A DNA stretch of 37,735 bases. Origin: a virus. The notes below the pieces were generated by a model, which saw only the letters and a list, made by a program, of their open reading frames with translations, was not told the origin of the DNA and did not search any database. Shown piece after piece: positions 565-29,061 of the stretch (positions are counted from its first letter, which is position 1; the number at the start of each line of letters is the position of its first letter). The position numbers were made by a program, and so were the translations under genes. Where the stretch lies: IMG/VR virus record IMGVR_UViG_3300009068_001395, positions 1-37,735 of that record. The stretch is one strand, 5' to 3'.

Positions 565-1106
565 GGATTTCGTTTATTATGTGGTACATCAAACACTAAT
601 GTAATACGTACCTCATCTCCTATGTTTTTAGCGGAATGTTCAAGTTTATTGTTGAACCAAAACAATGTGCCAGGTTCAACAATAAAACTCTCATCTCCTA
701 CAGTATACATGTATCGACCCTGTATTGACAAGTGATATCTGTCTTTAGTGAGGTAATAAGTACCAAAGTCAATATGTTTACCAACTTCACCATCAACAGG
801 TAATGAAAGAAACGCACACCGTTTGAAATCTTTGAAGTTGCGTTTCATAAAAGCAATTGCTTCGGTGTGGCGATAATATGCTGGTGCTGGTGTACAACCT
901 TCAGAATCAAATACATAATCGTCAGGTTTATCGATTGTACCAATTACCAGTTGAAGCACACCACTTTGACTTATATAAACATCAGGATCAAGAACTGTGG
1001 CGTTTTCAAGTCCCTTCTGATAATTCCAATCGGATGCATGTTCTTCCAACTGTTTCTTTATCTTAGAAACGTTAATGCCAGTTTTAATTATACGAATGTT
1101 TTTCAT
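561..1106 (-). CDS. 2OG-Fe(II) oxygenase, aspartyl/asparaginyl beta-hydroxylase-like
   Basis: This 181-aa protein has the pattern of a double-stranded beta-helix 2-oxoglutarate/Fe(II) oxygenase. The metal ligands would be His111 and Asp113 (HIDFG) and His157 (in KLEHSAKN), with Arg167 placed to bind 2-oxoglutarate. The GTLFWFNN strand before the distal histidine matches the Asp/Asn hydroxylase branch. The family hydroxylates protein side chains or small molecules; the substrate here is unknown. The gene overlaps the gp43 stop by 4 bp and the next gene by 4 bp (ATGA at both ends), so it is translationally coupled to the DNA polymerase. Family assignment is fairly secure; the phage role is open. 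Confidence 0.75.
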   Translation of the reverse strand: MKNIRIIKTGINVSKIKKQLEEHASDWNYQKGLENATVLDPDVYISQSGVLQLVIGTIDKPDDYVFDSEGCTPAPAYYRHTEAIAFMKRNFKDFKRCAFLSLPVDGEVGKHIDFGTYYLTKDRYHLSIQGRYMYTVGDESFIVEPGTLFWFNNKLEHSAKNIGDEVRITLVFDVPHNKRNP

Positions 1107-3634
1107 CCAAAAAAACTTTCTAGTGTAGATTGTTTCTCAGTTTCCCATCCAATAGAAACAAGAATGATTTTAATTGGATCAAGAAATGTTTTTTCAAACT
1201 GCAAGTCATAATCAATATAATTTTGCAGACCCAACTCTTTTGGCAATCTTGATGGATAAGATACCACTGAGTCTTTAAAAGGGTTCGGTGTTTTCAGATA
1301 AGTGAATTTAATCTTTTCACCTTCTTGAATCAATTGATACTTGGTCGTCAGACCATGTTGTTTTAGAAAATGATTATATAGTATCGCACCCTTCACATGA
1401 ATCGGTGTGCCTTTTTTATATAGTGTAGCAGAATCAGAATATTCTTTCAAACCATTCATACCTCGAGGAAAAGATATCTCTTCAGCAGGCAATAAATTGA
1501 ATTCTTCTTTGAATTCAGCAATAAACTTCTGCACCGTTAATTCATCTGTGGTAACAATCAATTTAATAAGTTGCTTCATCTTCTCACGCACAGCCGCAGG
1601 TGTGGAAGATTTTACCATCTCTAGACCCATCACCTTTAGATGAGGTTCATTATATTGAACACCTTCATTATTATATACATTGAGAATGTAACGTTTCTTG
1701 GCAGTCCAGATACCTTTATCTGAAAGACCTTCACGTTTCATAATCATCTTTTGGTCAAACGCATGTACATATTCAGCAAGTTCTTTATAACTCTCATCAA
1801 TAAACGGTTGAATTTTATCTTCACAGACTTTATCCATGAAGGAGATAATTGCTGAAGTTTCCTTTCCTTTTTTGTAGACGCTATTAACCAACGGGCCAAG
1901 GTTGAGATAAATCGAATCTGTGTCAGAGGCGATAACATAGTCTTTCTCAGTTTTTAATATATTGTTTAGATATTGGTTTAGTTTGTTTTCAATCCAACGA
2001 ATTGATAATTGACCAGCGGTAGTAACAGCAAGTGCCAAACGTAAATCATAGAATCTAAAATACTGTGAACCCATGGCACCATAAGCGGAGTTCAAAGTAA
2101 CTTTCTTTGCCAACTGTAGATTGTTGTATCGTGCAATCAGTTTTTCAATTTCAAACTTTTTTGTCGGATCACTTTCATTCTCATAATCTTGCTGCGACTT
2201 CAGCATCAACTTTTTAAACTTCTTTCGATCCTCATACATTTCTACCATCATCTGTGGCAGAAAACCTTGTTCAGTTGTATGAAAGAACTGGCCATTTGGA
2301 GTAATCGTAACATCTTTTAAGTTACTGGTATCCAATCGCTTGTTCAATAACTTTTCCACATTTGCTTGTGAAGATAGTGAACTCATTTCATCATTATAAT
2401 CTTCAGTCTCAATCAAAGTTTCTGGTGAAATATTATATTGAATGATCAAATGTGGATACAGAGAATTCAAGTCAAACGATGCAACCCAATCATGCATACC
2501 AATCTGTGGATCTTTAACATATGCACCCTCGAATGCTTCACTTTTCTTCTGTGCAATACGAGGTGGTATAATAATCTTTTTCTCCAAAAGGTGATTATAG
2601 ATTAGTGCATCCCACATGCGAGTTTGAGCAAACACATCTTCAAAGTTGGTCTTGGTATCATATGCAAGAGTAATCGCCAATTCAATCAACTTCAGTTTAT
2701 CTTCAAGTTTAACAATCAGTTCGGCATCTTTGATGTTATACTCAATAAACTTTTGATAATTAAGTTTGTATAACTGGTGAAGATTATCATATTCATCATA
2801 CGACAGTTTAGTTTCACCAAGTTCTACGTTGGCAATAGAATCTAGTTTATATGATTCTTGTGAATTACCACCAGGTGCATACCAACGATAGAGTTCAATA
2901 TAGTCAAGTGCTGAGATACCGACAATCTCATGAATCATCTGCTCCTTACCTTTGAATGTAGCATTTCGTGTAAAGGTTTGTCCCCACGGAGATAATTTCT
3001 TTACGCTATCCTCGCCAAGTAAACGTGAAAACCTATTGATAAGATAAGGTATATCAAAAAACTTGATATTCCAACCAGAGATGATATCAGGATAGTTATC
3101 TGACCAATCAACAAGGAACTTTTTACAAAGATCGATTTCATCACGGCACTCCACATAATTAACAGATTCATTTTGATTATCAAACTTACCACAACCATAC
3201 ACCGTAGTACCACCATTTAATTGGCGAACGGCAATAGCAGTGATTGGTTCAGTTGCTTTGTATGGATCAGGAAATCCATTCTCTGAACCAACTTCAATAT
3301 CGATTATAGCAATTGATAGATGAGAAATATCCCAATCAACGATGCCTCTATGATTGTCGGCGATAAATGCATATTCATAACGTGTATTGCCAAAGATTTT
3401 AAAATTTGAAACATCTCCATATCTCTTTACAAAATCACGTGCCTCACGAACATTCTCAAACTTCATTGGCTCAAGAGGTTCATTGAATAGCGTTTTATAC
3501 TCGGAAGGTTTTTTAGCAGGCAAAAACAACGTCGGAGAGTAAGATATTTTTTCTTTTACTCTCCGACCGTTACTTACACCACGGAACAAGACATGATTGC
3601 CTTGTACGACAACATTAGTATAATATTTTGACAT
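1103..3634 (-). CDS. 43: Family B DNA polymerase, gp43
   Basis: The 843-aa replicative polymerase compares with 898 aa in T4. The 3'-5' exonuclease motifs are intact: Exo I with Asp112 and Glu114 (DIEVGS, the same residue numbers as T4), Exo II near 188-196 (GWNIKFFDI) and Exo III near 299-305 (YNIKDAE). Polymerase motif A is at 388-394 (DLNSLYP), motif B around 510-521 (KKVTLNSAYGAMG) and motif C at 570-575 (SDTDSI). The extreme C-terminus, TLESFFG, is a clamp-binding (PIP-like) peptide; the same peptide recurs in the methyltransferase at 15522. It lies downstream of an Sm-like protein and is followed by an overlapping oxygenase gene. No strong Shine-Dalgarno sequence is visible before the ATG. 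No intein or insertion was seen. Confidence 0.98.
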   Translation of the reverse strand: MSKYYTNVVVQGNHVLFRGVSNGRRVKEKISYSPTLFLPAKKPSEYKTLFNEPLEPMKFENVREARDFVKRYGDVSNFKIFGNTRYEYAFIADNHRGIVDWDISHLSIAIIDIEVGSENGFPDPYKATEPITAIAVRQLNGGTTVYGCGKFDNQNESVNYVECRDEIDLCKKFLVDWSDNYPDIISGWNIKFFDIPYLINRFSRLLGEDSVKKLSPWGQTFTRNATFKGKEQMIHEIVGISALDYIELYRWYAPGGNSQESYKLDSIANVELGETKLSYDEYDNLHQLYKLNYQKFIEYNIKDAELIVKLEDKLKLIELAITLAYDTKTNFEDVFAQTRMWDALIYNHLLEKKIIIPPRIAQKKSEAFEGAYVKDPQIGMHDWVASFDLNSLYPHLIIQYNISPETLIETEDYNDEMSSLSSQANVEKLLNKRLDTSNLKDVTITPNGQFFHTTEQGFLPQMMVEMYEDRKKFKKLMLKSQQDYENESDPTKKFEIEKLIARYNNLQLAKKVTLNSAYGAMGSQYFRFYDLRLALAVTTAGQLSIRWIENKLNQYLNNILKTEKDYVIASDTDSIYLNLGPLVNSVYKKGKETSAIISFMDKVCEDKIQPFIDESYKELAEYVHAFDQKMIMKREGLSDKGIWTAKKRYILNVYNNEGVQYNEPHLKVMGLEMVKSSTPAAVREKMKQLIKLIVTTDELTVQKFIAEFKEEFNLLPAEEISFPRGMNGLKEYSDSATLYKKGTPIHVKGAILYNHFLKQHGLTTKYQLIQEGEKIKFTYLKTPNPFKDSVVSYPSRLPKELGLQNYIDYDLQFEKTFLDPIKIILVSIGWETEKQSTLESFFG

Positions 3635-7558: not shown

Positions 7559-7945
7559 TCATTTTCCTAACCCACCTATAAAGGTTTCTTTTTTTAGTTG
7601 TTGGATTTGTTCTTTGGTTAGTAGACGCATGGCATCACGTGCCTTGCCGTCGGAAAGTCCGTAGACTAATTTGATACATGCTATATCATCATCTTTTTCC
7701 GACTTTGCCCACTTCGCAAACGGCCTTTTCATAGACCTAACAGTATTTAGTAAAAAGTCACTCTGCATCTTTTTGTCTAAATGGTGGCGTTGATTCATCT
7801 CATTTGCTAATAGAACACAGTCCTTGTGTTGAGACAAAGACCTATTGGTCAGGAATGGTACATATGCCTTCTCTGTCAATTCGTCCACGATAAGTTGTTT
7901 CTTACCTTGAAGGATCTGGTTAACGTAGTCGAATGGTTTACTCAT
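7559..7945 (-). CDS. 62: Clamp-loader small subunit, gp62
   Basis: This 128-aa protein has the position and length of the compact gp62 of cyanophage-type T4-like phages (T4 has 187 aa). It contains DELTEKAYVPFLTNRSLSQH and a central SDFLLNTVRSMKRPFAKWAK, and ends in TFIGGLGK. With gp44 it forms the 4:1 loader that opens the gp45 clamp. The ATG overlaps the stop of the GIY-YIG-like gene (ATGA), and regA begins one base after its stop. In T4 the gene directly follows gp44; here a 210-aa gene intervenes. Identification rests on position plus weak sequence resemblance. Confidence 0.85.
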   Translation of the reverse strand: MSKPFDYVNQILQGKKQLIVDELTEKAYVPFLTNRSLSQHKDCVLLANEMNQRHHLDKKMQSDFLLNTVRSMKRPFAKWAKSEKDDDIACIKLVYGLSDGKARDAMRLLTKEQIQQLKKETFIGGLGK

Positions 7946-8574
7946 AATGGTAAAAACTTATTTAAATTTCCAGCCTTATAGGAGTTTAATGCTTTACTGG
8001 AAATGGATCCTTGTACCATTCGTTTATCAGTCTTATTTGCAAGATTACATAAAACTTCTTTATCCCATTTCATAATATAAGAATGTATAACCGTATCTTC
8101 AACCATAAGAAGCCATGATTTGACCGCTCTGCTTGGAAGATTTTTTGGCGGCACTAAAATATTTACAAATGGTTGATAATTTGGTCTCAGTGAAGGAGTA
8201 AAAGTTTCATGGAACAGAGTATAAGTATTTGATTGTCCAGGATATTGTTTTTGCCATTCTCTAAAATGAGATTTCATTCTCGTCTTAACTGTTGAATAAA
8301 GTGTGCTAGATTTTGGTGCCATGTATGTGCCCATATCTTTTCTAACTTTTTGATCATAGACCAAATGATCACCTTCTTTATTTCCAGTTTGTCCTACATA
8401 AAATGTTTCTTCTAATTCATGAGGAAAAATGTTTGAGTCTGGGCAAGTTTCAAGAAATGAAAAACTATATACGGCAGCATAAAGATTATTTGCAAATCCA
8501 TATATTTGTTCTTTTGAGAACCATCCTAAATTTTGAGCACCATGTGCTTGATAAATGTTCAAGTCAATATTCAT
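7942..8574 (-). CDS. GIY-YIG-like nuclease inserted between gp44 and gp62
   Basis: This 210-aa protein fits the GIY-YIG nuclease layout. A first strand ALYxVYSF-like (Ala34-Val35-Tyr36) and a second strand TFYVGQTG (Tyr59-Val60-Gly61) correspond to the GIY and YIG motifs. Arg99 and His103 follow in VKTRMKSHF, Glu159 lies in a helix (WLLMVEDTVIHSY) and Asn177 near the end. The first tyrosine motif is VYS rather than GIY, and the loop between motifs is long, so the match is partial. The gene overlaps gp44 by one base and gp62 by four, so it has been fitted into the coupled operon. It may be a homing endonuclease or a domesticated nuclease acting with the replisome. A non-nuclease relative is possible. 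Confidence 0.55.
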   Translation of the reverse strand: MNIDLNIYQAHGAQNLGWFSKEQIYGFANNLYAAVYSFSFLETCPDSNIFPHELEETFYVGQTGNKEGDHLVYDQKVRKDMGTYMAPKSSTLYSTVKTRMKSHFREWQKQYPGQSNTYTLFHETFTPSLRPNYQPFVNILVPPKNLPSRAVKSWLLMVEDTVIHSYIMKWDKEVLCNLANKTDKRMVQGSISSKALNSYKAGNLNKFLPL

Positions 8575-9758: not shown

Positions 9759-10439
9759 TTAAGCCTTTGTAAAAGTAGAACCAGTTTCAGTTGCAATCCA
9801 ATACTGAATGTTCAATGTTTTGTTTTTAAAATGTGAGATACCTTTAGATGATATCTGAACATCATAACCACCAGCCAACATTTTAAAGTTTTCGGTCTTG
9901 AAGAACATGCGATACTTATCACCATTACCTTTAGCAATCTCAAGTGAATCAGTATGTGCTGAACTATTTGCTAAGTCTGTCGTTGTGACAAAGACTGCAT
10001 CACCGTCAGATTCAACAACAATATTTGGTGAAGAAAGAACATTTGCTGCCCTTAATACCCAATCAAAATCCTCTGCGGATAATTCAAATGAGATTTCAGC
10101 CTCAGGCATTGCCAGTGTTTTATCTGGTGCAGCAACGATCAAACCAGCGGCACAGAACCGATACTTAATTTTACTGCGACCTTTTAGACCTGAGATAAGA
10201 ACATTCTCATTATCAAAATCAAGTGTGGCATCTTCTTTGTGAAGAGATAAAACGGAAAGAAATTCGTTTAGATTATATACACCAAAATCTGCTGGAATTT
10301 CTTCATTGATGGTTGCTTCAGCAAGAACATTCTTACCACCAGAGACAGTTTTAATTGTCTTACCTTTTTTAAACATGATGCTCTGATTGATTGAAGCAAA
10401 GTTTTTCAGTACATTTAGTGTGTCGTTAGACAGTTTCAT
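9759..10439 (-). CDS. 45: Sliding clamp, gp45
   Basis: This 226-aa protein is nearly the same length as T4 gp45 (228 aa) and begins with MKLSNDTLNVLKNFASINQS, the characteristic start of the family. It trimerises into the ring that gives gp43 processivity and that, in T4, activates late transcription through gp55 and gp33. Two PCNA-like halves are visible: GVYNLNEFLSVLSLH in the first and the FELSAEDFDWVLRAANVL helix in the second. The ATG has GGAG 7 bases upstream. It follows the glycosyltransferase gene after 40 bases of AT-rich spacer and is the first core gene of the 45-44-62-regA block. Confidence 0.96.
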   Translation of the reverse strand: MKLSNDTLNVLKNFASINQSIMFKKGKTIKTVSGGKNVLAEATINEEIPADFGVYNLNEFLSVLSLHKEDATLDFDNENVLISGLKGRSKIKYRFCAAGLIVAAPDKTLAMPEAEISFELSAEDFDWVLRAANVLSSPNIVVESDGDAVFVTTTDLANSSAHTDSLEIAKGNGDKYRMFFKTENFKMLAGGYDVQISSKGISHFKNKTLNIQYWIATETGSTFTKA

Positions 10440-11734: not shown

Positions 11735-12928
11735 TTAGAAAGGAACTTCTACCGATGGATCTGGTGTTGGTTCTTCTGCTTGACTGATTGTTTCTGGCGT
11801 TGCACCAGCATCGATTTTTGTGTACAGATCAAGGAAGGTAACTTTCGTATCAGTATCAAAACGATTTAAGCAGAACTGAATCGCTTTCAGTTTGTTACCG
11901 AAGATACCGTAGGTCTTTACGATATGTACCAGACGGCGAGTGGAGATAACCTCATCACAACCACCCTCATCAAAGGTACTACGGATTACTGTAGCCCATG
12001 ATACCAATTTATCGGCAAAATCTTTATCTTCTTTACCGACAGATTCTAATTCTTTGGCAACAATCTTTTTCTCAACTGCTGCTGGTGCCCATTCTTGTTC
12101 AAACGTATTTGGAAAACGTTCAAGGAAGGCTTCGTTCAATACGTTGGTAAACATATAGCGACCATCTTCTGAACCTTTACCTTTAGTATTCGCCGTAGCA
12201 AACACGGTAAAGCCTTCAGCGGGTGTAATTAACTCATTCTTTTTCTTTAGTAAGAATGGTTTGCCTTCGAATACACGTTGGAGGCATGACAGGTTATTTG
12301 AACCGTAGTCAATCTCATCAATACATAACACCGCACCTTGACGGGCTGCTAGAGTAACTGGACCGTCACGCCATTCCATCTGACCGTTGATCAGAACATA
12401 GTTACCAAGCAGATCACCCTCATCGGTATCTGGTGTCATTGATACGCAAACGAATTTACGTTTTGCTTTGGCACAAGCCTGTTCAATGGACATTGTCTTA
12501 CCATTGCCAGATGGACCAGTAACAAAGACAGGAAAGAACTGATTAGATTGTATGATTGACAATACATCATCAAAGTTGCCAAATGGTACATAGTTGCTGT
12601 ACTTAACAGGCACCAAATCTTCCATCTCAAGTTCTGTTACAACATTAGCAATACGATTGCCAGGTTTGACTTGAGGTGCTACCATTGGCAATATCTGAGC
12701 CGCCATTTGGACGGTTGGTGCGGGCGCTGGAGCAACTTTTCCAGAGGCGTTGGGTACACGATACTGACCGCGGCCAATTCGATTGGTTTCATCTTTGTAG
12801 TACCATTGTGGATCAGGAATGCCCAGAGCCTCAGCCATGGTACGCATATCTTCTTTGGTTAGAAAAGGCAGACCTGATGCTGCTGCCGTATCGAGAAACA
12901 ACTGGCGCTTGGCCGGGATGCTTGACAT
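11735..12928 (-). CDS. cobS: CobS-like MoxR-type AAA+ ATPase
   Basis: The ATG at 12926-12928, with AGGAG upstream, gives 397 aa; a longer frame would use a TTG that lies before that ribosome site. The AAA+ core has Walker A GPSGNGKTM (about 135-143), Walker B AVLCIDEID, and the sensor segment FTVFATANT, all typical of CobS/MoxR ATPases. The N-terminal ~60 residues (FLTKEDMRTMAEALGIPDPQ) form the CobS-type small domain, followed by a Pro/Ala linker. CobS with CobT inserts cobalt during aerobic B12 synthesis, and cobS is frequent in aquatic T4-like phages. Its partner here is the VWA protein just upstream. A MoxR-like protein-remodelling role independent of B12 is an equal possibility. Confidence 0.85.
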   Translation of the reverse strand: MSSIPAKRQLFLDTAAASGLPFLTKEDMRTMAEALGIPDPQWYYKDETNRIGRGQYRVPNASGKVAPAPAPTVQMAAQILPMVAPQVKPGNRIANVVTELEMEDLVPVKYSNYVPFGNFDDVLSIIQSNQFFPVFVTGPSGNGKTMSIEQACAKAKRKFVCVSMTPDTDEGDLLGNYVLINGQMEWRDGPVTLAARQGAVLCIDEIDYGSNNLSCLQRVFEGKPFLLKKKNELITPAEGFTVFATANTKGKGSEDGRYMFTNVLNEAFLERFPNTFEQEWAPAAVEKKIVAKELESVGKEDKDFADKLVSWATVIRSTFDEGGCDEVISTRRLVHIVKTYGIFGNKLKAIQFCLNRFDTDTKVTFLDLYTKIDAGATPETISQAEEPTPDPSVEVPF

Positions 12929-12959
12929 AATATAAACTCCTATCAACTATTGAAACTTC

Positions 12960-15521: not shown

Positions 15522-16349
15522 TTAAAAGAAACTTTCTAGTGTGTTACCAACTCTTTTCCAATATGTCGGTCTATTATTCCAGCAATTCGTTTCCACTTTC
15601 TCATAGCCATACTGGCGCATCTTATCATTAAACATAGTGCTCATTATCTTACCAGGATAGATTTTATCTTGGTAAACATAATTATTAAAGTGTCCTATTG
15701 CTCTTGAATTAAAAGTATTTGCAATGATAAAGTATTTAGGTTCACAGTTTTGAATCACATCCACCAAATGATCAATAGGATTATAGAAGTGCTCAAAGTA
15801 TTCTGAGGCAAAAACTAAATCTGTTTTCATCTTGTGGTCGGAAATAATTTTAAAGTTATGTTCTTGACCTAACTCAGTTGCCATTTTATACTGAGCACTC
15901 TCTTCTATATTAGTACCATATACATTAGCATTTGGAAATATATCTTTTAGTCCAGCAGTGGTATATCCAAATCCACAACCTAAATCTAATACTGTGTTCA
16001 CATCAACCATGTCCTGCACAATGCTTTTATTAGACATGGACGTGGTTGATTGAATATCTTTTAAATATCTTCTTGAATATTTAGACCAACACATCCATAC
16101 TTCACAGAAATAATATGGACTTGAATAAACAGAATAGTCTGGTACATTTGTGGTTAATGATTCATACCATCTATCTTCCAAGAGTTTCATCTCATACATA
16201 TCTTGGACATCTACGTCAATACCATCATGCGCTTTCATACATGTGAGGGTAGTTCTATATGCCACATCTTGATTAATATCGGCATGCTTGGCACAATTTG
16301 CCAAGTATTTTTTAAGTGCTTCTTTCGTGCCCTCTTCTAAAACATTCAT
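15522..16349 (-). CDS. SAM methyltransferase with clamp-binding C-terminus
   Basis: This 275-aa class I methyltransferase has the SAM-binding motif I VLDLGCGFGYTTAGL (120-134) after a ~115-residue N-terminal helical extension (EVWMCWSKYSRRYL). Motif II would be ANVYGTNIEESAQ, and the motif IV position reads DLVFASEYFEHF. There is no DPPY/NPPY or PC motif, so it is not an ordinary N6A, N4C or C5 DNA methylase. The last six residues, TLESFF, are identical to those at the end of the phage DNA polymerase, which points to sliding-clamp binding. The start overlaps the stop of the TAGT-like glycosyltransferase gene (ATGA). My inference is a base- or sugar-modifying enzyme acting on replicating DNA. 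Confidence 0.8.
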   Translation of the reverse strand: MNVLEEGTKEALKKYLANCAKHADINQDVAYRTTLTCMKAHDGIDVDVQDMYEMKLLEDRWYESLTTNVPDYSVYSSPYYFCEVWMCWSKYSRRYLKDIQSTTSMSNKSIVQDMVDVNTVLDLGCGFGYTTAGLKDIFPNANVYGTNIEESAQYKMATELGQEHNFKIISDHKMKTDLVFASEYFEHFYNPIDHLVDVIQNCEPKYFIIANTFNSRAIGHFNNYVYQDKIYPGKIMSTMFNDKMRQYGYEKVETNCWNNRPTYWKRVGNTLESFF

Positions 16350-17242
16350 GATTTAAAGTCTGTGGCAAATCTCATGCCATAATTGTTGTTACCTTCAGGT
16401 ATCTTAACATCAGGTTTCAAACGAAGTTCATTCTTCTTGAATGATGAATAGTCAACATAGTGATGCCAACGTTTGTATCTCCATACCATTCTTGCCACAT
16501 CTGGATGTAGATCGACCAACATCTGTGATTTGTTTCTGGTGCCCTCAGAGTTTACATTCTCAATCCATTTACCTTCATCAGCACCTTCTTTGTGATAGAA
16601 TTCCTCAGTGTTACCACCCTTAACCGTTTGTGTTGCCGCTTTGCCCTGCAAGAATGCATTGAACTGTATGGTGCAATCACCATCTTTCAATACTTGGAGA
16701 CAGATATCAGTATCTTCATTATACCTACCACGCCACCTATGCTTACACTTATTATCTATCAACAATGTAGAATAGATACGAGTGTTCTTCACATATGGTG
16801 GATATTTACTATTCGGCGCAATAAAAAATCTATACTGAAAGCCAGCGATTGGTACGTTCTCATAACGATCAACAAAATCTTCTGCTGCACGAAAGATGGC
16901 ACCAGACTCCACACGAACACGTTTATTTTTCTGAAGGCGATAGAAGTCTGCAATATTATCATCAAGTACCCAATGTTTCTCAGCACCAATAGATATAGAA
17001 TGATCCCAACACCAATTTCTTGCACGACCAGGACCATCGCCATGATTAGAAAACGGTGCAATCAACAAAGTCACATAAGGCCGAATATTAAATTTGTCTA
17101 ATGCTTTCTCATATAACTCTTCATCTTGTGGTTCGATAGCAATGTAATGAGGCACTTTCATTCTTGCCAACGACCGAGAGGTTAGCATCGACTCTGAACG
17201 ACCTTTAGATATAATATAAACTGGATGCTTAGGATTGGTCAT
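16346..17242 (-). CDS. TAGT-like putative DNA-base glycosyltransferase
   Basis: This 298-aa protein resembles the TET/JBP-associated glycosyltransferase (TAGT, GREB1-related) family predicted to glycosylate hydroxymethylated pyrimidines in DNA. The N-terminus carries PVYIISKGR (8-15 region), a nucleotide-binding GPGRARNWCWDH (70-81), the metal triad position DDN (94-96) and a distal acidic EDTD (176-179) after RWRGRYN. Phage and kinetoplastid relatives act with TET/JBP or other hydroxymethyl-base enzymes, but no TET/JBP gene was seen in this window. It is coupled by overlaps to a 121-aa protein gene before it and a methyltransferase after it. A protein or glycan acceptor remains possible. Confidence 0.65.
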   Translation of the reverse strand: MTNPKHPVYIISKGRSESMLTSRSLARMKVPHYIAIEPQDEELYEKALDKFNIRPYVTLLIAPFSNHGDGPGRARNWCWDHSISIGAEKHWVLDDNIADFYRLQKNKRVRVESGAIFRAAEDFVDRYENVPIAGFQYRFFIAPNSKYPPYVKNTRIYSTLLIDNKCKHRWRGRYNEDTDICLQVLKDGDCTIQFNAFLQGKAATQTVKGGNTEEFYHKEGADEGKWIENVNSEGTRNKSQMLVDLHPDVARMVWRYKRWHHYVDYSSFKKNELRLKPDVKIPEGNNNYGMRFATDFKS

Positions 17243-17594
17243 CTTCTACCCACCTCATCAAAGAATTTGCTTCACGATCCAATGCAGGATGCCAGATTGA
17301 TTTAGTTTTCTCTGTTAGATTTTGGTCAATAATTTTAGCGAACTCTTCATAGTCCTCTTTGGTACGAAAACTTATAATCAATTTTTTAAATGGAGGGTTA
17401 TCTTCATTCTCAAACTCAGGCATACCTTTCCAATGTTTTGTCCACTCAGCATTGTTGGTATCTACACCATCCTCATCCGATTCATCGTTTTCACCAAAAA
17501 ATCTATTCAGTGTTGGAGGTTGTGGTAAATCTACTTTGACACCAATAAGACTCTCATATGTGGTGGTTTCTTGAACATCAGTTTGCTTTATCAT
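17229..17594 (-). CDS. Hypothetical protein with C-terminal TKSIW motif, DNA-modification neighbour
   Basis: This 121-aa protein has a loosely structured acidic N-terminus (PTLNRFFGENDESDEDG) and a compact C-terminal domain beginning KKLIISFRTKEDYEEFAKII, followed by TEKTKSIWHPALD and a final LMRWVED. Similar small domains with 'TKSIW.P' recur in phages next to DNA-modification and ParB-like genes; I know no demonstrated function. It overlaps the deformylase gene by 17 bases and the TAGT-like gene by 14, so the three are tightly coupled. The internal LNRFF resembles a clamp-binding peptide, but this is a weak match. Confidence 0.7.
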   Translation of the reverse strand: MIKQTDVQETTTYESLIGVKVDLPQPPTLNRFFGENDESDEDGVDTNNAEWTKHWKGMPEFENEDNPPFKKLIISFRTKEDYEEFAKIIDQNLTEKTKSIWHPALDREANSLMRWVEDDQS

Positions 17595-21109: not shown

Positions 21110-21646
21110 CTATTCTACATCATTTTGTAGAAAAGATTCAAGTCCTTCTGCTTTCTTTTCCTTTTTCTTCTTCTTATTTTCCTCAAAATTAAAGATGAAT
21201 TCGGAAATGTTATCGTACAATTCAAACTGTTTCATATTACCATTTTCATCTTCAAACATTTCACCTTCATCCAATAATCCAAATTGTTGAGTTGCCTTAT
21301 ACTTTACATATAGTTGTTTCTTTTCCTTCATAATTCGACGGAGAAAAGCATAGTAAATTATCTGAGTGAAGTATGCAAATGGATTCTTTGATTTGGCAGG
21401 ATCAAAATTGCGAAAGTATTGAATGCAGTTCTCAACACCATCACATATCATTTCGTCTCGGTAAGTGTATGAAATGAAGTTTGGTTTGCGAGACAGATGT
21501 TCAGCAATCTTTAGAAAGCATTCACCAATATAGTTAGGTATCTTAGGTTCTGGTCCATCTGTTTCTTTTGCGTTCGCACAGTCCTCATGATACTTAATGA
21601 GTGCTGCCAGAAAGTCTGCGTTGTTCACATAATGATTTGTAGCCAT
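21110..21646 (-). CDS. 55: Late-gene sigma factor, gp55
   Basis: This 178-aa protein compares with 185 aa in T4. The central part carries the region 2-like sequence: ENCIQYFRNFDPAKSKNPFA then YFTQIIYYAFLRRI, which recognises late promoters of the TATAAATA type. A lysine-rich segment (about 158-165) precedes GLESFLQ (168-174), the equivalent of the T4 gp55 clamp-binding tail. Binding to gp45 couples late transcription to replication in T4. TATAAATA-type boxes occur at 31958, 34477 and 37077 (variant CATAAATA). The gene lies at the edge of the sugar cassette; a coding-like remnant separates them. Confidence 0.93.
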   Translation of the reverse strand: MATNHYVNNADFLAALIKYHEDCANAKETDGPEPKIPNYIGECFLKIAEHLSRKPNFISYTYRDEMICDGVENCIQYFRNFDPAKSKNPFAYFTQIIYYAFLRRIMKEKKQLYVKYKATQQFGLLDEGEMFEDENGNMKQFELYDNISEFIFNFEENKKKKKEKKAEGLESFLQNDVE

Positions 21647-21723: not shown

Positions 21724-22659
21724 TTATACATTACCATAGATGTTGTTCTTAATCATTCTATAACCCGTCAGCAACTCCATAATTCCACTATCTAAATCAT
21801 ACATTGGTTCAAATCCAGTTGCTTCTAACTTAGCATTAGAAACGATGTAGTTTCTTTGATCTGGATCTTTCTTAATCTCCCCTTCAACAATCGAGAAACC
21901 AGGAACATGCTTCTTGATTATCTCACACAATTCTAACTTAGACACATTCGCAGATGAGAGGCCTACATTATATATCTGACCCTTCATTGTATCAAAATTA
22001 TAGATGGCATGAATGAATGCATCACACACATCACGGACATGGATATAATTACGTTTGAAATGTCCCTCAAATATAACAACATAACCATCATTGACTGCAC
22101 GATAGGTCAAATCATTTACTAACAAATCAGTACGCATACGTGGTGACATACCAAACACAGTTGCCAAACGATAACTGATTGAGTTCTCACGTTGCATAAA
22201 CATTTGTTCCACTACCACTTTATCTATGGCATACTTAGATATAGGACTGAGTGGTGACTCTTCAGTGCATAAATTATTCTCATCACCTGAACCATATGCT
22301 GAGTTGGTTGTAGGCATAATGATTCGTTGCTCTTTGGATATTTTATCCAGCATCATAAAGATTGCTTCTTTATTGGTAGTATCAGCACCAACCACATCTT
22401 TGTTACATAGAGGCGCACCAACTAATGCTGCCAATGGAATAATTATATCAGCATCTTTCAGCAATGGTTGGATGTGAGCAAGATTTCTAATGTCGCCATT
22501 GACCACATTGAATCGTGGGTTATGGCACAAATGATTTAAACTTGCCTGCTTGTACATAAAGTTATCAAGTACAGTTACCTTGAATCCTAAGTCTAAAAGA
22601 AATTCTGATAGGATAGAACCAATGTATCCTGCACCACCTGTCACTAAAACATTATTCAT
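21724..22659 (-). CDS. NAD-dependent sugar epimerase/reductase (extended SDR)
   Basis: This 311-aa extended short-chain dehydrogenase has the NAD(P)-binding glycine motif TGGAGYIGS (7-15) and the catalytic Tyr143-xxx-Lys147 (YAIDK), with serine/threonine 118-120 before it. The family includes UDP-glucose 4-epimerases, NDP-sugar dehydratases and reductases. In this cassette it could epimerise or reduce the keto-sugar made by its neighbours (a YerF-like step would be a reduction). It follows the dehydratase gene after one base, with AGGG upstream of the ATG. Confidence 0.88.
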   Translation of the reverse strand: MNNVLVTGGAGYIGSILSEFLLDLGFKVTVLDNFMYKQASLNHLCHNPRFNVVNGDIRNLAHIQPLLKDADIIIPLAALVGAPLCNKDVVGADTTNKEAIFMMLDKISKEQRIIMPTTNSAYGSGDENNLCTEESPLSPISKYAIDKVVVEQMFMQRENSISYRLATVFGMSPRMRTDLLVNDLTYRAVNDGYVVIFEGHFKRNYIHVRDVCDAFIHAIYNFDTMKGQIYNVGLSSANVSKLELCEIIKKHVPGFSIVEGEIKKDPDQRNYIVSNAKLEATGFEPMYDLDSGIMELLTGYRMIKNNIYGNV

Positions 22660-22660
22660 A

Positions 22661-23836
22661 TTATACCCTATTCAATACGTCAGTTATTTCTTTGATTGCA
22701 TTCTTTGATAACGATGGGTAATTACCTATATAAAAACTATAAAAATGCATATGATCTGTGTTAGGATAGTTCTTGTAATGATCTTCAGCAACAATACCTT
22801 TTAGATATGGTTGACGCAGTTGATTACCACCACCAGCAGAACCACGACGGAACTCAATTTCATTATCACGCATTTTACCCATCAATCTTTGTACAAACTC
22901 TTTATTTGCATACTCGGGTTGTAGTACAATGTTAAATGCATAGTTACTGCAACCTGTCAAACGAAAATCGACTTTATACTTTTTACTATCCAACTTGGAC
23001 AGAAACTCTAAGAGATTCTCATTTCTCATTATAACATTATTGTTTAGGTATTTCAACTGGTTTTGTCCAAGTATGCCACCAATTTCTGTATTGCGAACAT
23101 TGTAAGCAGCAAAGGCAAAGATGAATTCTGGATTCAATTCTGGATATACCTTCTGGTAATTCTTAATCATTGGTTCTGAACCACATTCACGTACCATACC
23201 ATGTGACCGAAGCATACGAAGGGTGTGATAAACATTCTCATCATTAGTGCATACCATACCACCTTCAATGGTAGACATGTGGTGAGCAAAGTAGAAAGAG
23301 AAGTTGGACATCCATCCGTAACTACCTAAAAGTTTATTATGATGGGTAGCACCATGTGATTCACACACATCTTCAATCAATGGAATGTTTCTGTTGAGTA
23401 ATTCAGTAACAAGTTTATCTGAGAGACAATCAAAACCTTGTGCGTAGGTAATAAACACAGCACGTGTCTTGTTGGTAATAGCATTGATGATACCATCGGT
23501 GTTCATACCAAGAGTATCTAAATCAATGTCAACAAATACAGGAGTAAAACCACATTGAATGATAGAGGCAATATCAGATACCCATGTGAATGGTGGTACA
23601 ATAACTTCACCACCTTCTGGATGTTTGATCTTGAGCATTGCCATTGACAGCAGATTGGCAGAAGCACCTGAGTTTACAAACACAGAATACTTTACACCTA
23701 ACCATTTAGACCATGCTTCTTCAAAAGCACGACACTCTGGACCATTAGTTAGTTTAGGGTTATCTTTTTTTAGATGTTCGATTACCAAATCTAAATCTTC
23801 TCTGGAAATATTATCACTCATCAATGGATACTTCAT
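22661..23836 (-). CDS. PLP-dependent sugar 3-dehydratase (DegT/ColD-like, His for Lys)
   Basis: This 391-aa protein has the DegT/DnrJ/EryC1 fold, with NSGASAN (55-61) and PLP-contact Asp157 in EDVCESHGA. Where the family carries the PLP-binding lysine, the sequence reads FAHHMSTIEGG, with His185-His186. That replacement defines the ColD and RfbH (E1) dehydratases, which remove the 3-hydroxyl from NDP-4-keto-6-deoxyhexoses. No N-terminal iron-sulfur cysteine cluster is seen, so it is nearer ColD (about 388 aa) than RfbH. It is therefore predicted to make a 3-deoxy-4-keto sugar rather than an aminosugar. AGGAG precedes the ATG. Confidence 0.85.
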   Translation of the reverse strand: MKYPLMSDNISREDLDLVIEHLKKDNPKLTNGPECRAFEEAWSKWLGVKYSVFVNSGASANLLSMAMLKIKHPEGGEVIVPPFTWVSDIASIIQCGFTPVFVDIDLDTLGMNTDGIINAITNKTRAVFITYAQGFDCLSDKLVTELLNRNIPLIEDVCESHGATHHNKLLGSYGWMSNFSFYFAHHMSTIEGGMVCTNDENVYHTLRMLRSHGMVRECGSEPMIKNYQKVYPELNPEFIFAFAAYNVRNTEIGGILGQNQLKYLNNNVIMRNENLLEFLSKLDSKKYKVDFRLTGCSNYAFNIVLQPEYANKEFVQRLMGKMRDNEIEFRRGSAGGGNQLRQPYLKGIVAEDHYKNYPNTDHMHFYSFYIGNYPSLSKNAIKEITDVLNRV

Positions 23837-23851
23837 AACAAACTCCTATAA

Positions 23852-24697
23852 TTATAAATTAAATTTTGCAGGTATATCTTTTTTAAACTTTCCGTTCTGT
23901 ATGTATGTCCACCAGAAACCATCATCTCTATTGACACCTTCTAACCATCGTCCTGGTCTAGCATCTAAATTAAACTCTTCATAGATTGCCAACAATACAC
24001 CAGGATGAAAATCATTAATCATTTTAATCTTATGAGTTAGTCCTATAAGATTTTTAGGTGTACTGAATCTATCAAAATAATCTGAACCTAAAAGTGCAGA
24101 TTCAATATCTGGAAACAAACGAAGAAATTCAAAATTCTCACCTCTATAAAAATCTACATCTTTATGTGTTCTGGCAATATTTAACATTTCTTCTGTAGGA
24201 TTATTTTCATAATCATCACCACAAATTATGCCACAACTTTGTTTTACAATTCGTTTTGCCTGTACAATATCAGATTTGATGTCGGCATAATAATGAGAAC
24301 CATCAATGTAAATAAAATCAAAAGTATTATCTGCAAAATCTTGTAGAACTTTTTTAGAGTCACCACGAATTAAAGTTATATCTAAGTTTCTTTTTTGCTC
24401 ATACTCTTTAACCACTTTGATGGTATTAATATAAGCATCATGAGTCATGTCATCAAATTTTTTATAATCAAAATCTGGATTCTCTAAATCTTTTTCAGAA
24501 CAATATGCTTTCCAAGAATCGATTAACGTGACAGAGGAATCTGGATGTATTTCATCTAACCATATTCTAGTTGAACCTTCACCATACCAAGTTCCAATCT
24601 CTAAAATCTTTAATGGTTTTTTGCTGTGGGTTTTGATTAGATTCCGCATAGGTACTACTCTATGTGGTGCTGCTTGATTTACTGGTGGTTCAATCAT
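23852..24697 (-). CDS. SAM-dependent methyltransferase, cassette member
   Basis: This 281-aa class I methyltransferase has motif I LEIGTWYGEGS (32-42) and FDFIYIDGSHYYADIKSDI, typical of the Methyltransf_24 family found in glycan and natural-product clusters. An N-terminal VNQAAPHR segment is family-variable. It probably O- or C-methylates a sugar or nucleotide sugar made by the cassette. It starts 2 bases after the GHMP kinase stop, with GAGGT before the ATG. It is not closely similar to the methyltransferase at 15522 and lacks the TLESFF tail. Confidence 0.85.
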   Translation of the reverse strand: MIEPPVNQAAPHRVVPMRNLIKTHSKKPLKILEIGTWYGEGSTRIWLDEIHPDSSVTLIDSWKAYCSEKDLENPDFDYKKFDDMTHDAYINTIKVVKEYEQKRNLDITLIRGDSKKVLQDFADNTFDFIYIDGSHYYADIKSDIVQAKRIVKQSCGIICGDDYENNPTEEMLNIARTHKDVDFYRGENFEFLRLFPDIESALLGSDYFDRFSTPKNLIGLTHKIKMINDFHPGVLLAIYEEFNLDARPGRWLEGVNRDDGFWWTYIQNGKFKKDIPAKFNL

Positions 24698-24699
24698 AC

Positions 24700-25689
24700 T
24701 TACCTCATAATAATTTTAGAACCTTCAAAATCAAACTTGAACGGTATCCATATATTGATTTGCTTCAGTCTATCTTTAATCTTTTGATGTGTATCTGGTG
24801 GCGCAAGAAACATAAAGAATCCACCACCACCTGCACCCATCAACTTGCCGCCATATGCTCCTGCTTCTATTGCAGCATCGTATATACTATTTATGTCGCT
24901 GCTGGCCACGCTATCTGTGAGTGTTCGTTTATAGTTCCACTGTTCTTGCAACAGCAGACCTATATCTTTGATTGAAGAATTGGATTCATGTTCAAATATT
25001 CTAAGTGCTTCGTAGGTAAGTTTCTGCATTGCTTCAAGTGTTTGGACAGACTTACCTTCTTTGATAGATTCAACTTGTTTCTTTGCATGAACTTCTGATA
25101 GTCTACTGATACCAGAAAACCCTAGCATGATATGAGATTCTAAATCTTTAACATAACTATCATGTAATTTTAAATCACGAACTTTGATATTGGCACCAGA
25201 TAGTTCAATGACTTTGATGCCACCATATGCTGCCATAATTTGATCTTGGACACCCACAGACTCACCAATAATATTTTGTTCAACATTGATTGCTTCGTTT
25301 GCAAGTTCAAATGCAGTTTTCCTTATACCATTATATGCATATAAAGCATTTAATAATCCAACAGTAAATGAAGAAGATGATCCAATGCCACTGCGAGCAG
25401 GAAGATCACCATCATAAGCAATAGATATACCATCGTCCATCCTTAAATATTGTAGACAAGCACGTACCGATGGATGATTGATTTCTTCCACCGAATTTGT
25501 GTTTTCTATTTTATTATATGTGATTCTATGTTTATATTCAAAAAATGGTGGCATAGATTTTACAGAAACGTAAGAATGGTTTCCCATTGCAGCAGAAATT
25601 ATTTTAGTTTCTCTACTTTGAAACCATGCTGGATAATCTGCACCACCACCAAATAAAGATAATCTATACGGTGTTTTTGATATGAACAT
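24700..25689 (-). CDS. GHMP sugar kinase (HddA-like)
   Basis: The ATG at 25687-25689, one base after the upstream stop, gives 329 aa. The N-terminal KTPYRLSLFGGGADYP is characteristic of D-glycero-D-manno-heptose 7-phosphate kinases (HddA) and related fucose kinases. The GHMP ATP-binding motif is PARSGIGSSSS and the C-terminal motif 3 is LMGAGGGGFF. It phosphorylates a sugar or sugar phosphate at the anomeric carbon, activating it for nucleotide transfer. In this cassette it would supply an activated sugar. No nucleotidyltransferase is seen in the window, so the pathway depends on host enzymes or genes elsewhere. Confidence 0.88.
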   Translation of the reverse strand: MFISKTPYRLSLFGGGADYPAWFQSRETKIISAAMGNHSYVSVKSMPPFFEYKHRITYNKIENTNSVEEINHPSVRACLQYLRMDDGISIAYDGDLPARSGIGSSSSFTVGLLNALYAYNGIRKTAFELANEAINVEQNIIGESVGVQDQIMAAYGGIKVIELSGANIKVRDLKLHDSYVKDLESHIMLGFSGISRLSEVHAKKQVESIKEGKSVQTLEAMQKLTYEALRIFEHESNSSIKDIGLLLQEQWNYKRTLTDSVASSDINSIYDAAIEAGAYGGKLMGAGGGGFFMFLAPPDTHQKIKDRLKQINIWIPFKFDFEGSKIIMR

Positions 25690-25690
25690 C

Positions 25691-27544
25691 TTATTCCGAT
25701 GTTGGAACTGGATTAACAATGTCAGGCATTGCTGGTGTCATCCATCCTTCAATCGGTTCAATGTACATATTCTTTTTAAATTCTTCTCTATCGATATAAG
25801 GGTACATATCTTCAATAGGTGTACTCCATCCAAAGATACGAGGTTCATAGGTATGATACTCATTAATGTCCACATCACACACTACAGGTTCATCTGCGGA
25901 TAGGAGTTCAAAAATTGCATCATCAATCTTTGCTGGATCTTTGAGAGCAATAGTTCGTATACCATATGCCTGAGTTACTTTAATAAAGTCTGGTGGTGCA
26001 TAACCTTTTGGACCACATGCTTCTGCACGACCTTGATAGTTTGTTTCTTGGTATGCTTTAGTAATACCATAGATGTGATTGTTTAAAATAATAGTTTTGA
26101 TCTTGCAACCATAATTTTTAATTGTTTGTAATTCTTGTGGGTTCATATTGAAACCACCATCACCAATGATGCATACGATTGTTTTTTCTGGTGCTGCAAA
26201 CCATGCACCAATTGCGGCAGCAAATGAGAAACCCATTGGAGAATTGCCGTTGTTGGTAATAAAGTGTTGACCTAGTTTAGTTTCAAATGCATGTGATGCA
26301 ATAACAATATTACCACCACAGTCTGCCAACAGAACATCATTTGATTTCATTACCTCTGACAGTCTACGAACGAATCGATATGGATGAATTTCATTCTTAG
26401 ATGTACCAAAGTGTGGTTTTACTGGATCATATTTGTGACGCCATCCTTTTGCTTGATCTAACCATGGTTCATGTTGACGTTTGTATTCAGTCTCTTCCAA
26501 AACTTCTTTGAGTACCTCTAAAAATATTTTAGCATCACAATTTATATTAACATCAAATGGAACTTGTTGCAGTTTGCGTTGAAGTTGTGCTTCATCAACA
26601 TCTACCATTATCTTTTTTGCTCCACGTGCAAACGTATGGATATTACCACCAGTAATACGACCTGATATACGTGAACCAACTGACAATAGTAGATCGCTAT
26701 TCTGGATAGCAAAGTTACGACCAGCACCACCATATGTACCAATACGACCACAGTATGTTTCTAAATCACTTGTAACTGAATCAAGTGCATTCCATGTTGG
26801 AAATGTAGGAATGCCAAGCATCTTAGATACTTCTTGCATTACATCAATTGCACCAGCAATCTTTACACCACCACCAATCATTAAAACTGGACGCTGTGCT
26901 TTTTTAATGTCGATTACAATATCAACTATCTGTTGCTTAACTCTTTGCTTTAAATAAAAAATATCAGGTAGACCAACATCTCTTACAAGATTAGGATTAA
27001 ATCCAAGTTGCTTATCTGGATCGATCATTACTTTTTGAATGTTTAAAGGAATATCTAATAGAACAGGACCCGGACGACCAGACTTGGCAAGATGAATTGC
27101 TTTGTCTACCTCATACCGAATGCTCTCTGGGTCCATAATCATCTTAGCATATTTGGTAATTGGTTTTACAATAGAAACAATATCAGTTTCTTGAAAACCA
27201 ATTTGGCGCAACGACTCATCAGGGCGCAAAAACTTTGAATTGATTTGTCCAGTAATAAAGATGGCAGGAACTGAATCATAGAAGCAGTTACCAATAGGAG
27301 TAACAAAGTTCATACCACCTGGACCACTGGTTGCAATCGCTGCACCAATTTTACCAGATACTTTGGCATAACCTTCAGCAGCAAAACCACCTGCCTGTTC
27401 ATGCATTACGGCAACGTATTCTGTTTTATCTGTACGTGTAAATGCATCAATAAGATCACCGTTAGCAGCACCATAGACAACAAAGATTTTATCAATGCCC
27501 TCGTCTGCTAAACGGTTAATAACATAGTCTGCAAGTTTAATCAT
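25691..27544 (-). CDS. Thiamine-diphosphate carboligase (acetolactate synthase/YerE-like)
   Basis: The ATG at 27542-27544, after AGGAG, gives 617 aa. All ThDP-enzyme parts are present: catalytic Glu49 (HEQAGGFAAEGYAK), GPGGMNFVTPI in the N-terminal domain, a central nucleotide-binding-like domain (RPVLMIGGGVKI) and the ThDP motif GDGGFNMN followed by LNN. It resembles acetolactate synthase large subunits. Next to a ColD-like dehydratase the closest biochemical model is YerE, which adds a two-carbon unit from pyruvate to C4 of a 3,6-dideoxy-4-keto sugar in yersiniose synthesis. A true acetolactate synthase or another carboligase is possible. The start overlaps no gene but follows the radical SAM stop by 2 bases. 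Confidence 0.88.
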   Translation of the reverse strand: MIKLADYVINRLADEGIDKIFVVYGAANGDLIDAFTRTDKTEYVAVMHEQAGGFAAEGYAKVSGKIGAAIATSGPGGMNFVTPIGNCFYDSVPAIFITGQINSKFLRPDESLRQIGFQETDIVSIVKPITKYAKMIMDPESIRYEVDKAIHLAKSGRPGPVLLDIPLNIQKVMIDPDKQLGFNPNLVRDVGLPDIFYLKQRVKQQIVDIVIDIKKAQRPVLMIGGGVKIAGAIDVMQEVSKMLGIPTFPTWNALDSVTSDLETYCGRIGTYGGAGRNFAIQNSDLLLSVGSRISGRITGGNIHTFARGAKKIMVDVDEAQLQRKLQQVPFDVNINCDAKIFLEVLKEVLEETEYKRQHEPWLDQAKGWRHKYDPVKPHFGTSKNEIHPYRFVRRLSEVMKSNDVLLADCGGNIVIASHAFETKLGQHFITNNGNSPMGFSFAAAIGAWFAAPEKTIVCIIGDGGFNMNPQELQTIKNYGCKIKTIILNNHIYGITKAYQETNYQGRAEACGPKGYAPPDFIKVTQAYGIRTIALKDPAKIDDAIFELLSADEPVVCDVDINEYHTYEPRIFGWSTPIEDMYPYIDREEFKKNMYIEPIEGWMTPAMPDIVNPVPTSE

Positions 27545-27546
27545 AA

Positions 27547-29061
27547 TCAATCTCCTAATAACTTTCTTTTTAATTTAATCTCACGGGTTGCATTCAATTC
27601 TTGGAGTGCTTTGTCGCCAAACTTGTCTTTCATTAACTTCTGATAACTTCCGCTTGCATGATACTTGTCCCAAGACATATCACGAAACGCAAGTATCTCT
27701 GCTGCGGTCAAGTATTTATTCGCCAGATTTAACGTATCATAGGAATGCTGACTGTAACCAGAGTATGTATTTGGCAGTTCAATGTTGAGAACCTTTGCTT
27801 GATTGTGCAATGGACTACCAGGATATGCCATAGCAGAATACATATTGGTCATCTCAGTTGGATTGTCCAATGCAAATTGTAATGTTGCTTCCATTGATCG
27901 TTGAGTATCATAAGGCAATCCAAAAATATAGTTACCAGCAATATTAATACCTGCGCCACGAATCATCTGGAACAAATCTAAAATTTTTACATCTTGAAAA
28001 CCATCTTTGTGAATCTCTTTACGCAATTCATTATCTGGATTTTCAATACCAAGACCTAACCACTTAACACCTGCACGATAAAGTTTATCTAAGTATTTTG
28101 GTTTACATGTATCGACACGGGAATATGCCCAGATATTAAAATCATAACCACGTTCAATAATCAAGTCACATATTGCTTCAAAATGCCTAGGGTTTAAAAC
28201 AAATAACTCATCCGCAATCTTAACATTCTTCACACCCTGTGCGGCAATGTGATCAAATTGCTTGATGATAAATTCTGGTGACCACCAACGGAACAGATTA
28301 CTATCTTCCGAAGAAATGTTTGGTCCTTGCTTAGTACGATTAATAATATTGATCATGCAAAACGAACAGCGATATGGACAACCTAAACTGGTATATAATG
28401 CAGCAAATGGTTGCTTCTCTGTGTTGTTTGACCATGAGTGCCAACCTGCTGTGCGGTACTTATCGAGTGATGGTAACAAGTCCCATGCCATACCAGGCAA
28501 ATCAATCTCAAGTCTCTCACGCGGAACAATCTCTGAAGATTCATTGTAAGAAATTTGATTATCTGATGTTCTGAATACAATACCTTTTACATTTCGTAAT
28601 CCAACATCATCAAATTTCTGAATTGAAAGAAGGTCATTAATAGCATACACACCTTCGTTTTGGCAGACCGCATCAATGTACGGTTCTTTTCTGAGAGTCT
28701 CTTCTGGTAAAGCAGCAACATGACCACCTACAAATAATATAAATGTGTTTGGTGATAAGTCGTGGAATTCTTTTGCGGTTGCAGTTGCACCTTCCATGTT
28801 CTGTGAAGATGCAGATGGTTGCTGACCATACACCACAAAGCAAACAATTCTTGCTTTGTATTCGGTAATTCGTTTTGCTGCTGAAGCATAATCTAATTGC
28901 TCTGCTTCAGCATCAAGTATTTCAGGTTTAAATCCTTTAGCACGAACACTATTGGCAAGCATAGCGGCCCAAATAGGAGGTTCAACTGCTGCATTGTTTG
29001 TTGCTAGTCCCTGATAAATCTTTTGTGATGCATTCGGGTGTACAAATAATATATCTACCAT
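27547..29061 (-). CDS. B12-binding-domain radical SAM enzyme
   Basis: This 504-aa class B-type radical SAM protein has an N-terminal cobalamin-binding-like Rossmann domain (about 1-150, MVDILFVHPNAS, then VVYGQQPSASS and FILFVGGHVAALPEE) and the cluster motif CPYRCSFC (Cys228, Cys232, Cys235). Later blocks such as GVKWLGLGIENPD, GAGINIAGNYIFGLP and MAYPGSPLH match the P-methylase/BchE-like group. Members catalyse methylations or rearrangements that often need cobalamin. It opens the sugar cassette in transcription order. The substrate is unknown; C-methylation of a sugar is an inference from context. Confidence 0.9.
   Translation of the reverse strand: MVDILFVHPNASQKIYQGLATNNAAVEPPIWAAMLANSVRAKGFKPEILDAEAEQLDYASAAKRITEYKARIVCFVVYGQQPSASSQNMEGATATAKEFHDLSPNTFILFVGGHVAALPEETLRKEPYIDAVCQNEGVYAINDLLSIQKFDDVGLRNVKGIVFRTSDNQISYNESSEIVPRERLEIDLPGMAWDLLPSLDKYRTAGWHSWSNNTEKQPFAALYTSLGCPYRCSFCMINIINRTKQGPNISSEDSNLFRWWSPEFIIKQFDHIAAQGVKNVKIADELFVLNPRHFEAICDLIIERGYDFNIWAYSRVDTCKPKYLDKLYRAGVKWLGLGIENPDNELRKEIHKDGFQDVKILDLFQMIRGAGINIAGNYIFGLPYDTQRSMEATLQFALDNPTEMTNMYSAMAYPGSPLHNQAKVLNIELPNTYSGYSQHSYDTLNLANKYLTAAEILAFRDMSWDKYHASGSYQKLMKDKFGDKALQELNATREIKLKRKLLGD

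Follow-up and report, generated by a model that had tools for sequence, protein, structure and literature searches.

A putative sliding-clamp peptide on a methyltransferase and on an unrelated glycosyltransferase encoded beside TAGT in T4-like phages

A window of 37,735 bases from an uncultivated T4-like phage, whose DNA polymerase has its closest relatives among marine cyanophages such as S-SSM4 (52%), encodes a class I SAM methyltransferase of the Methyltransf_23/12 type (MT; 275 aa, 15522..16349, minus strand; assigned by Pfam, structure model and fold). Its last six residues, TLESFF (residues 270-275, 15525..15542, minus strand), form a clamp-type peptide, the proposed hook, which by motif comparison very probably binds the sliding clamp gp45. 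The hook motif is kept in many T4-like MT homologues in spite of about 50% divergence of the core, and it recurs on GTX, a glycosyltransferase that is unrelated in fold to MT and fills its slot beside the TET-associated glycosyltransferase TAGT in related phages. The comparison suggests that MT, its relatives and GTX modify phage DNA from a position on the clamp. Action of MT on DNA is considered likely. The joint statement, namely a hook on gp45 together with a role of MT in TAGT-dependent DNA hypermodification, is somewhat favoured, confidence in it being lowered by one MT clade without the tail (clade B) and by the missing base.

C-terminal peptides in the window and in T4

The identical ends of the polymerase and the methyltransferase, on which the original prediction was built, were confirmed from the open reading frames (ORFs). 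The DNA polymerase gp43 (1103..3634, minus strand; ORF and Pfam) ends ...QSTLESFFG, its C-terminal clamp peptide TLESFFG being located at 1106..1126 (minus strand), and MT ends ...GNTLESFF. The late sigma factor gp55 (21110..21646, minus strand) owes its name in the earlier annotation to adjacency to gp47 and to its tail, and the Pfam search with this ORF returned zero matches. It does carry LESFL (21128..21142, minus strand) near its C-terminus (...GLESFLQNDVE), although the peptide is followed by five residues and does not stand seven from the end as had been stated. The gp43 and gp55 peptides were assigned from the ORF ends and from conservation of the motif in the corresponding proteins of relatives. 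The proposed partner, gp45, is encoded at 9759..10439 (minus strand; PF09116, 2.5e-11; PF02916, 3.4e-07).

TLESFF was the sole 6-mer common to any tails (last 12 residues) of the 49 called ORFs in the window. After shuffling of the window tails, some common 6-mer was obtained in 0.245% of the runs and some common 5-mer in 5.8%. The motif [LI]xxF[FL] was present in the last 12 residues of 4/49 ORFs, compared to 0.19 expected from internal 12-mers. The gp43 and MT gene ends have 14 nt in common (ACACTAGAAAGTTT), so that local copying is possible in this one genome; in the loci L005 and L006, LESFL is encoded with different surrounding codons. The in-window evidence for a clamp hook is modest by itself, and its strength comes from comparison.

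Clamp peptides are known on the polymerase, the ligase, the late sigma factor and the co-activator of T4. The T4 tails are SLDFLFG in gp43, SLDFLYEAND(E) in gp55 and TLDFLL in gp33. With these the tails described here share a hydrophobic-acidic core at the extreme C-terminus, L-[DE]-x-[FL]-[FLY], as well as a flexible end and a phage that encodes gp45. They differ from the three T4 peptides in having F at the fourth motif position and in their carriers, a methyltransferase and a glycosyltransferase that are encoded in a presumed DNA-modification operon. LESF[FL], which had been put forward as a consensus, was too narrow in view of the relatives and of SLDFLF in T4. It was replaced by the working motif [LI]-x-x-F-[FLM], in which the second residue is mostly D or E. 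A 2025 report places SLDFLF of T4 gp43 in a hydrophobic pocket of gp45 and describes the association with gp45 as abolished when the six C-terminal residues of gp43 are removed (PMC12746103), and the clamp motifs of gp43, gp55 and gp33 are called interchangeable in a review (PMC2988020).

The search for further tails that had been recommended, run on the window ORFs as [LI]xxF[FL], added one ORF, O210 (7942..8574, minus strand), which lies between gp44 and gp62 and ends NLNKFLPL (7945..7968, minus strand; ORF end and homologues). By its tail and its homologues it is a candidate second clamp client: five homologues at 26-34% identity all keep L and F of L-x-x-F, and the gene is found directly after TAGT in L128 and L140. 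Pfam gave nothing convincing for O210, and Foldseek returned zero matches at E <= 0.001 using a mediocre model (pLDDT 65); inspection by eye alone suggested that YVGQTGN may be a GIY-YIG-like stretch. As a separate observation, a T5orf172/GIY-YIG-type protein of a T4-like fragment (L204:2980-3561) ends QLDQLFS, a possible clamp peptide.

The tail across the methyltransferase family

MT homologues were collected in four scans of viral contigs and a TAGT scan, one of the scans being limited to the best 80 of 257. The resulting 161 MT rows reduced to 80 distinct complete proteins. A length filter kept 77 of them, which were grouped into 54 clusters at 90% identity. The regular expression [LIVM]xxF[FLIM] was fixed before the wide survey of the family, and it matched the MT C-terminus in 9/17 T4-like clusters as against 1/37 other clusters. 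When LxxF directly before the stop was also allowed, the counts were 14/17 and 1/37, respectively; this rule is post hoc, having been widened after the SLYRF ends of MT2 had been seen. The MT2 lineage, a diverged form of MT, comprises five clusters with the conserved end SSLYRF, and its gene is located upstream of TAGT. The single match outside the T4-like clusters (L065) comes from a fragment of 4.5 kb, and its sister is the T4-like L204. A Fisher test on these cluster counts ignores relatedness and was not used as evidence of independence. In a quick tree of 61 chosen representatives the two main T4-like MT groups stood apart within the wider family, and a tree-based pair test of tail against T4-like origin comprised only 4 independent pairs, a number at which significance is unreachable.

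In T4-like MTs a variable linker connects the core end WNNRPxYWKK with a hook variant, examples being LESFF, LESFL, LEKFF, LDPFF, LDQFF, LSMFFNDL, IEKFL, IEKFF, LAKFLMD and LMSFIE. MTs outside T4-like loci mostly stop within a few residues of WNNRPxYWKK, and a few have unrelated longer ends. By this distribution the tail is an add-on, and nearly all homologues from outside T4-like loci lack it. The clamp itself was found in 10/21 searched contigs, all of them T4-like, and in 0/11 others, most of which are fragments. The MT encoded at L069:5971-6819 ends KPLNSLFS, which is like the LxxLF of T4, on a contig without a recognised gp45. This case counts against the clamp reading; a different clamp may serve in this phage. 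In a search of 50,697 phage records MT and MT2 were without a match at the limits used, so that no cultured phage with this module can be cited, and the search of isolate phage records with the clade C MT gave two weak Listeria matches at 28% identity.

The same motif was counted in other families of the T4-like phages. It was present in the last ten residues of gp43 in 18/18 clusters of T4-like relatives and within the last 30 residues of gp55 in 24/26 clusters of T4-like loci, and it was found 0 times in twelve control families of T4-like origin, namely gp45, gp44, gp62, regA, gp46, gp47, uvsW, TAGT (0/26 clusters), orf121, pdf, anp1 and AAA. The regular expression by itself is not specific, as it also matched 22/26 clusters of the vWA family via VSRFI. 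Since this stretch belongs to a conserved, non-acidic end and no clamp role is obvious, vWA was set aside as a probable false positive. The AAA+ (CbbQ/MoxR-like) protein of the window (11735-12946, minus strand) ends ...SVEVPF, and most relatives keep EEVPF, EVPF or DEEIPF, a C-terminus that we take to be reminiscent of the acidic C-tip of SSB.

Tail-less MTs also occur within T4-like phages. The clade B MTs (10 distinct proteins in one cluster) end DSCFLTT or a variant thereof, and the MTs of L050 and of the L060/L079 cluster are likewise without the tail. The polymerases of clade B still end SLADFF, SLDDFF or SLSNFF, and the phages of tail-less MTs keep LxxFF on gp43 wherever gp43 is readable. 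A frameshifted or hidden tail was searched for in five clade B members, and no LxxFF was present in any frame past the core. TTGACA and TATACT-like stretches were seen by eye in the clade B MT end region and may be the promoter of the next gene. The proposal that MT rides the clamp is backed by the retention of the motif in most T4-like MT lineages and by its presence on GTX, but not by clade B, where exactly the combination occurs that had been named as speaking against it, a lost MT tail beside a kept polymerase tail. Due to this clade the hook is not obligatory, and clade B, set against the wider pattern, is read here as the loss of a dispensable hook. Such a reading fits what is reported for the T4 alpha-glucosyltransferase (alpha-GT), whose share of glucosylation is said to be determined mainly by something other than binding to gp45 (PMC13216743).

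According to the same source, which cites Sommer 2004, pull-downs recovered gp45 with T4 alpha-GT but not with beta-GT. T4 alpha-GT resembles MT and GTX in being a phage DNA-modification enzyme tied to the same kind of clamp, but it has an unrelated GT-B fold and its C-terminus, EQFDIITK, is without a clamp peptide, so that the tail is not the way used by T4.

The TAGT operon and GTX

The methyltransferase gene belongs to a trio located between gp46 and gp45. TAGT (PF20691, 1e-44; phrog_842; 298 aa, 16346..17242, minus strand) overlaps the MT start with its stop by 4 bp and overlaps with its own start the third module member, orf121 (17229..17594, minus strand), a KHWKGMPEF-type small protein recognised from its ORF and neighbourhood. 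TAGT was found at a distance of at most 1.5 kb from MT for 64/77 distinct MTs (33/34 T4-like, 31/43 in other loci), and it may be upstream or downstream; since the order varies, the linkage looks functional rather than a frozen gene order. The TAGT loci examined were the best 80 of 477. Small orf121-like ORFs were recognised by eye beside MT/TAGT in some non-T4-like loci (L069, L071 and L081). Moreover, ParB-N-type proteins are encoded next to TAGT and MT in non-T4-like phages (L056:6811-7431, L073:4265-4924), and ParB-type neighbours are reported for other phage DNA-modification genes (PMC12783734). In L204 (1132-2619) the match to TAGT, at 72% identity, is part of an ORF of 495 aa that comes straight after gp43 and may represent TAGT fused to another domain.

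The T6-type TAGT (PF20691) adds a second glucose to glucosylated hydroxymethylcytosine. Its Pfam family is common to the neighbour of MT and to GTX; the present systems differ in that GTX bears the hook and TAGT does not, and in that no member of the hydroxymethylase family was found in the searched relatives. The thymidylate-synthase/dCMP hydroxymethylase family PF00303 was found in 0/21 searched contigs, mostly fragments, and TET/JBP (PF12851, above cut-off) and the C5 DNA methylase family PF00145 were each found in 0/16 searched contigs, again mostly fragments. A survey from 2026 reports TAGT without alpha- or beta-GT in 288/753 phage genomes (PMC13216743).

When every protein encoded in 169 T4-like loci was scanned for the motif, GTX was returned besides gp43, gp55 and MT. 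GTX is a second TAGT-family glycosyltransferase (PF20691, 7.6e-10), and its gene is located directly upstream of TAGT in phages whose loci yielded no MT. The alignment scan covered the best 80 of 116 relatives, of which 78 with a complete C-terminal end gave 42 clusters. The regular expression fixed earlier matched the last ten residues in 32/42 of these clusters, compared to an internal rate of 0.0009. The hook consensus is [ST]-L-E-x-F-[FLM], with SSLESFF, NTLEDFMS and SLENFLY as examples, and several of the non-carriers are near misses (NLEDLF, SIEKYFEE and SLENHFK). Where the TAGT was at least 65% identical to that of the window the hook was present in 29/32 clusters, and at lower identity in 0/5. 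Isolate phage records gave one weak partial match to GTX only. Judged by these alignments, GTX carries the hook even more consistently than MT. Because GTX has the same slot and the same hook, the hook appears to accompany the partner of TAGT rather than methylation itself.

Substrate of the methyltransferase and a possible role of the clamp

In Pfam, MT matched PF13489 (2.5e-07, 31 bits against a cut-off of 27) and also PF08242 above its cut-off. The SAM motif DxGCG is present, as expected of a Methyltransf_23-like class I enzyme, and the invariant block across the family is FASEYFEH. The AlphaFold2 model has a mean pLDDT of 95, its last strand is at 262-266, and residues 272-275 are the only segment with pLDDT <50, so that in the model the tail is a flexible end outside the fold and the only disordered part. 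The best fold matches are small-molecule O-methyltransferases (tyrosine O-methyltransferase with Z 14.0, 210 residues aligned, rmsd 3.8), and the top Foldseek matches are mostly metabolite C/O/N-methyltransferases. Fold, motifs and Pfam speak against a conventional DNA-base methyltransferase of the N6-A/N4-C or C5 type. The Pfam matches were to general Methyltransf families, with none to a DNA methylase family, and no DNA-base methyltransferase was among the 50 structure matches listed, which is an absence from a list and not a test. The O-methyltransferase-like fold and the lack of the catalytic motif [DNS]PP[YFW] in the sequence, as read directly, are the reasons for which MT was not filed as a DNA-base enzyme.

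The kinship to small-molecule O/C/N-methyltransferases also fits another reading, which we consider unlikely, namely that the tail binds gp45 but the substrate of MT is a nucleotide sugar or small molecule at the replisome, so that the hook only localises the enzyme near TAGT. Such a substrate would suit a weak NCBIfam match to pseudaminic-acid methylase, under the cut-off of that model, and a sugar-nucleotide-type gene cluster about 5 kb from MT in the window. The cluster (21724-29061, minus strand), situated between gp55 and UvsW, comprises an epimerase, a DegT aminotransferase, a Methyltransf_24 protein, an HddA-like heptose-phosphate kinase, an acetolactate-synthase-like TPP enzyme and a B12 radical SAM protein. 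For a soluble substrate, however, a hook would be of little use, and the same hook is borne by the TAGT-linked GTX. Moreover, clade B keeps MT yet has no room for the sugar cluster, its uvsW being close to gp55.

It is highly improbable that the tail is a mere hydrophobic C-terminus without a partner and that the TLESFF identity arose by coincidence or through local copying of 14 nt. The nucleotides shared by the gp43 and MT gene ends, the common 5-mers, which are not rare among shuffled tails, and the loss of the tail in clade B would be compatible with chance, but diverged MTs retain the motif despite differences in their codons and linkers, its frequency in the GTX clusters exceeds the internal rate by far, and the twelve control families gave 0. 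If the tail were a helix of the folded C-terminus, or a contact within a dimer, in place of a clamp peptide, this would agree with the one-turn helix drawn at 271-274 in the model. Such a reading can be dismissed almost entirely, since pLDDT is <50 there, the structures aligned to MT mostly stop near residue 266-270, two unrelated folds have the same motif, and most homologues outside T4-like phages are complete without the tail.

In the preferred reading, in which the hook binds gp45 and MT takes part in hypermodification, the LESFF tail of MT would be a gp45-binding peptide of the gp43/gp55/gp33 type, as its motif indicates. TAGT would first transfer a sugar to a modified base, as its family implies. 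MT would then O-methylate a hydroxyl of the substituent added by TAGT or another part of the base, a step that its fold and the linkage point to, and in the GTX phages GTX would add a second sugar instead. The partner enzyme would be tethered to gp45 by its C-terminus and would work chiefly just behind the fork; because clamps stay on the DNA there, the enzyme would be brought by its hook to duplex that has just been replicated. A parallel is DNMT1, which PCNA, a sliding clamp, is reported to hold on new DNA (PMC9690074); it differs in being a C5 methyltransferase of eukaryotes that binds PCNA through a motif of its own, and in using another clamp and another peptide. A tentative extension, about which our doubts outweigh our confidence, is that marine T4-like phages possess a clamp-borne hypermodification system composed of TAGT and an interchangeable partner (MT, MT2 or GTX), in which two unrelated folds have gained the same hook and the genome is glycosylated and capped, i.e. 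methylated or double-glycosylated, directly behind the fork. The result would be a novel base, for example an O-methylated glycosyl base, that is formed without any known hydroxymethyl route.

A search of the open-licence literature turned up no account of a clamp peptide on a methyltransferase of a phage or on a partner of TAGT. The peptides of T4 polymerase, ligase and late transcription and one gp45-touching glucosyltransferase are known; what appears to be new is a family of putative DNA-modification enzymes with a probable clamp peptide. The main interest lies in a single hook shared by two unrelated folds of one operon. Short peptides would allow a direct test of the exchange in which GTX replaces MT in its operon slot while the hook is kept. 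If the proposal is true, C-terminal [ST]LExF[FLM] in T4-like phages would be a signature for finding unknown DNA-modifying enzymes, and a new modified base would be probable in uncultivated aquatic phages. It would also explain how the whole genome is modified fast enough, before defence nucleases meet bare DNA.
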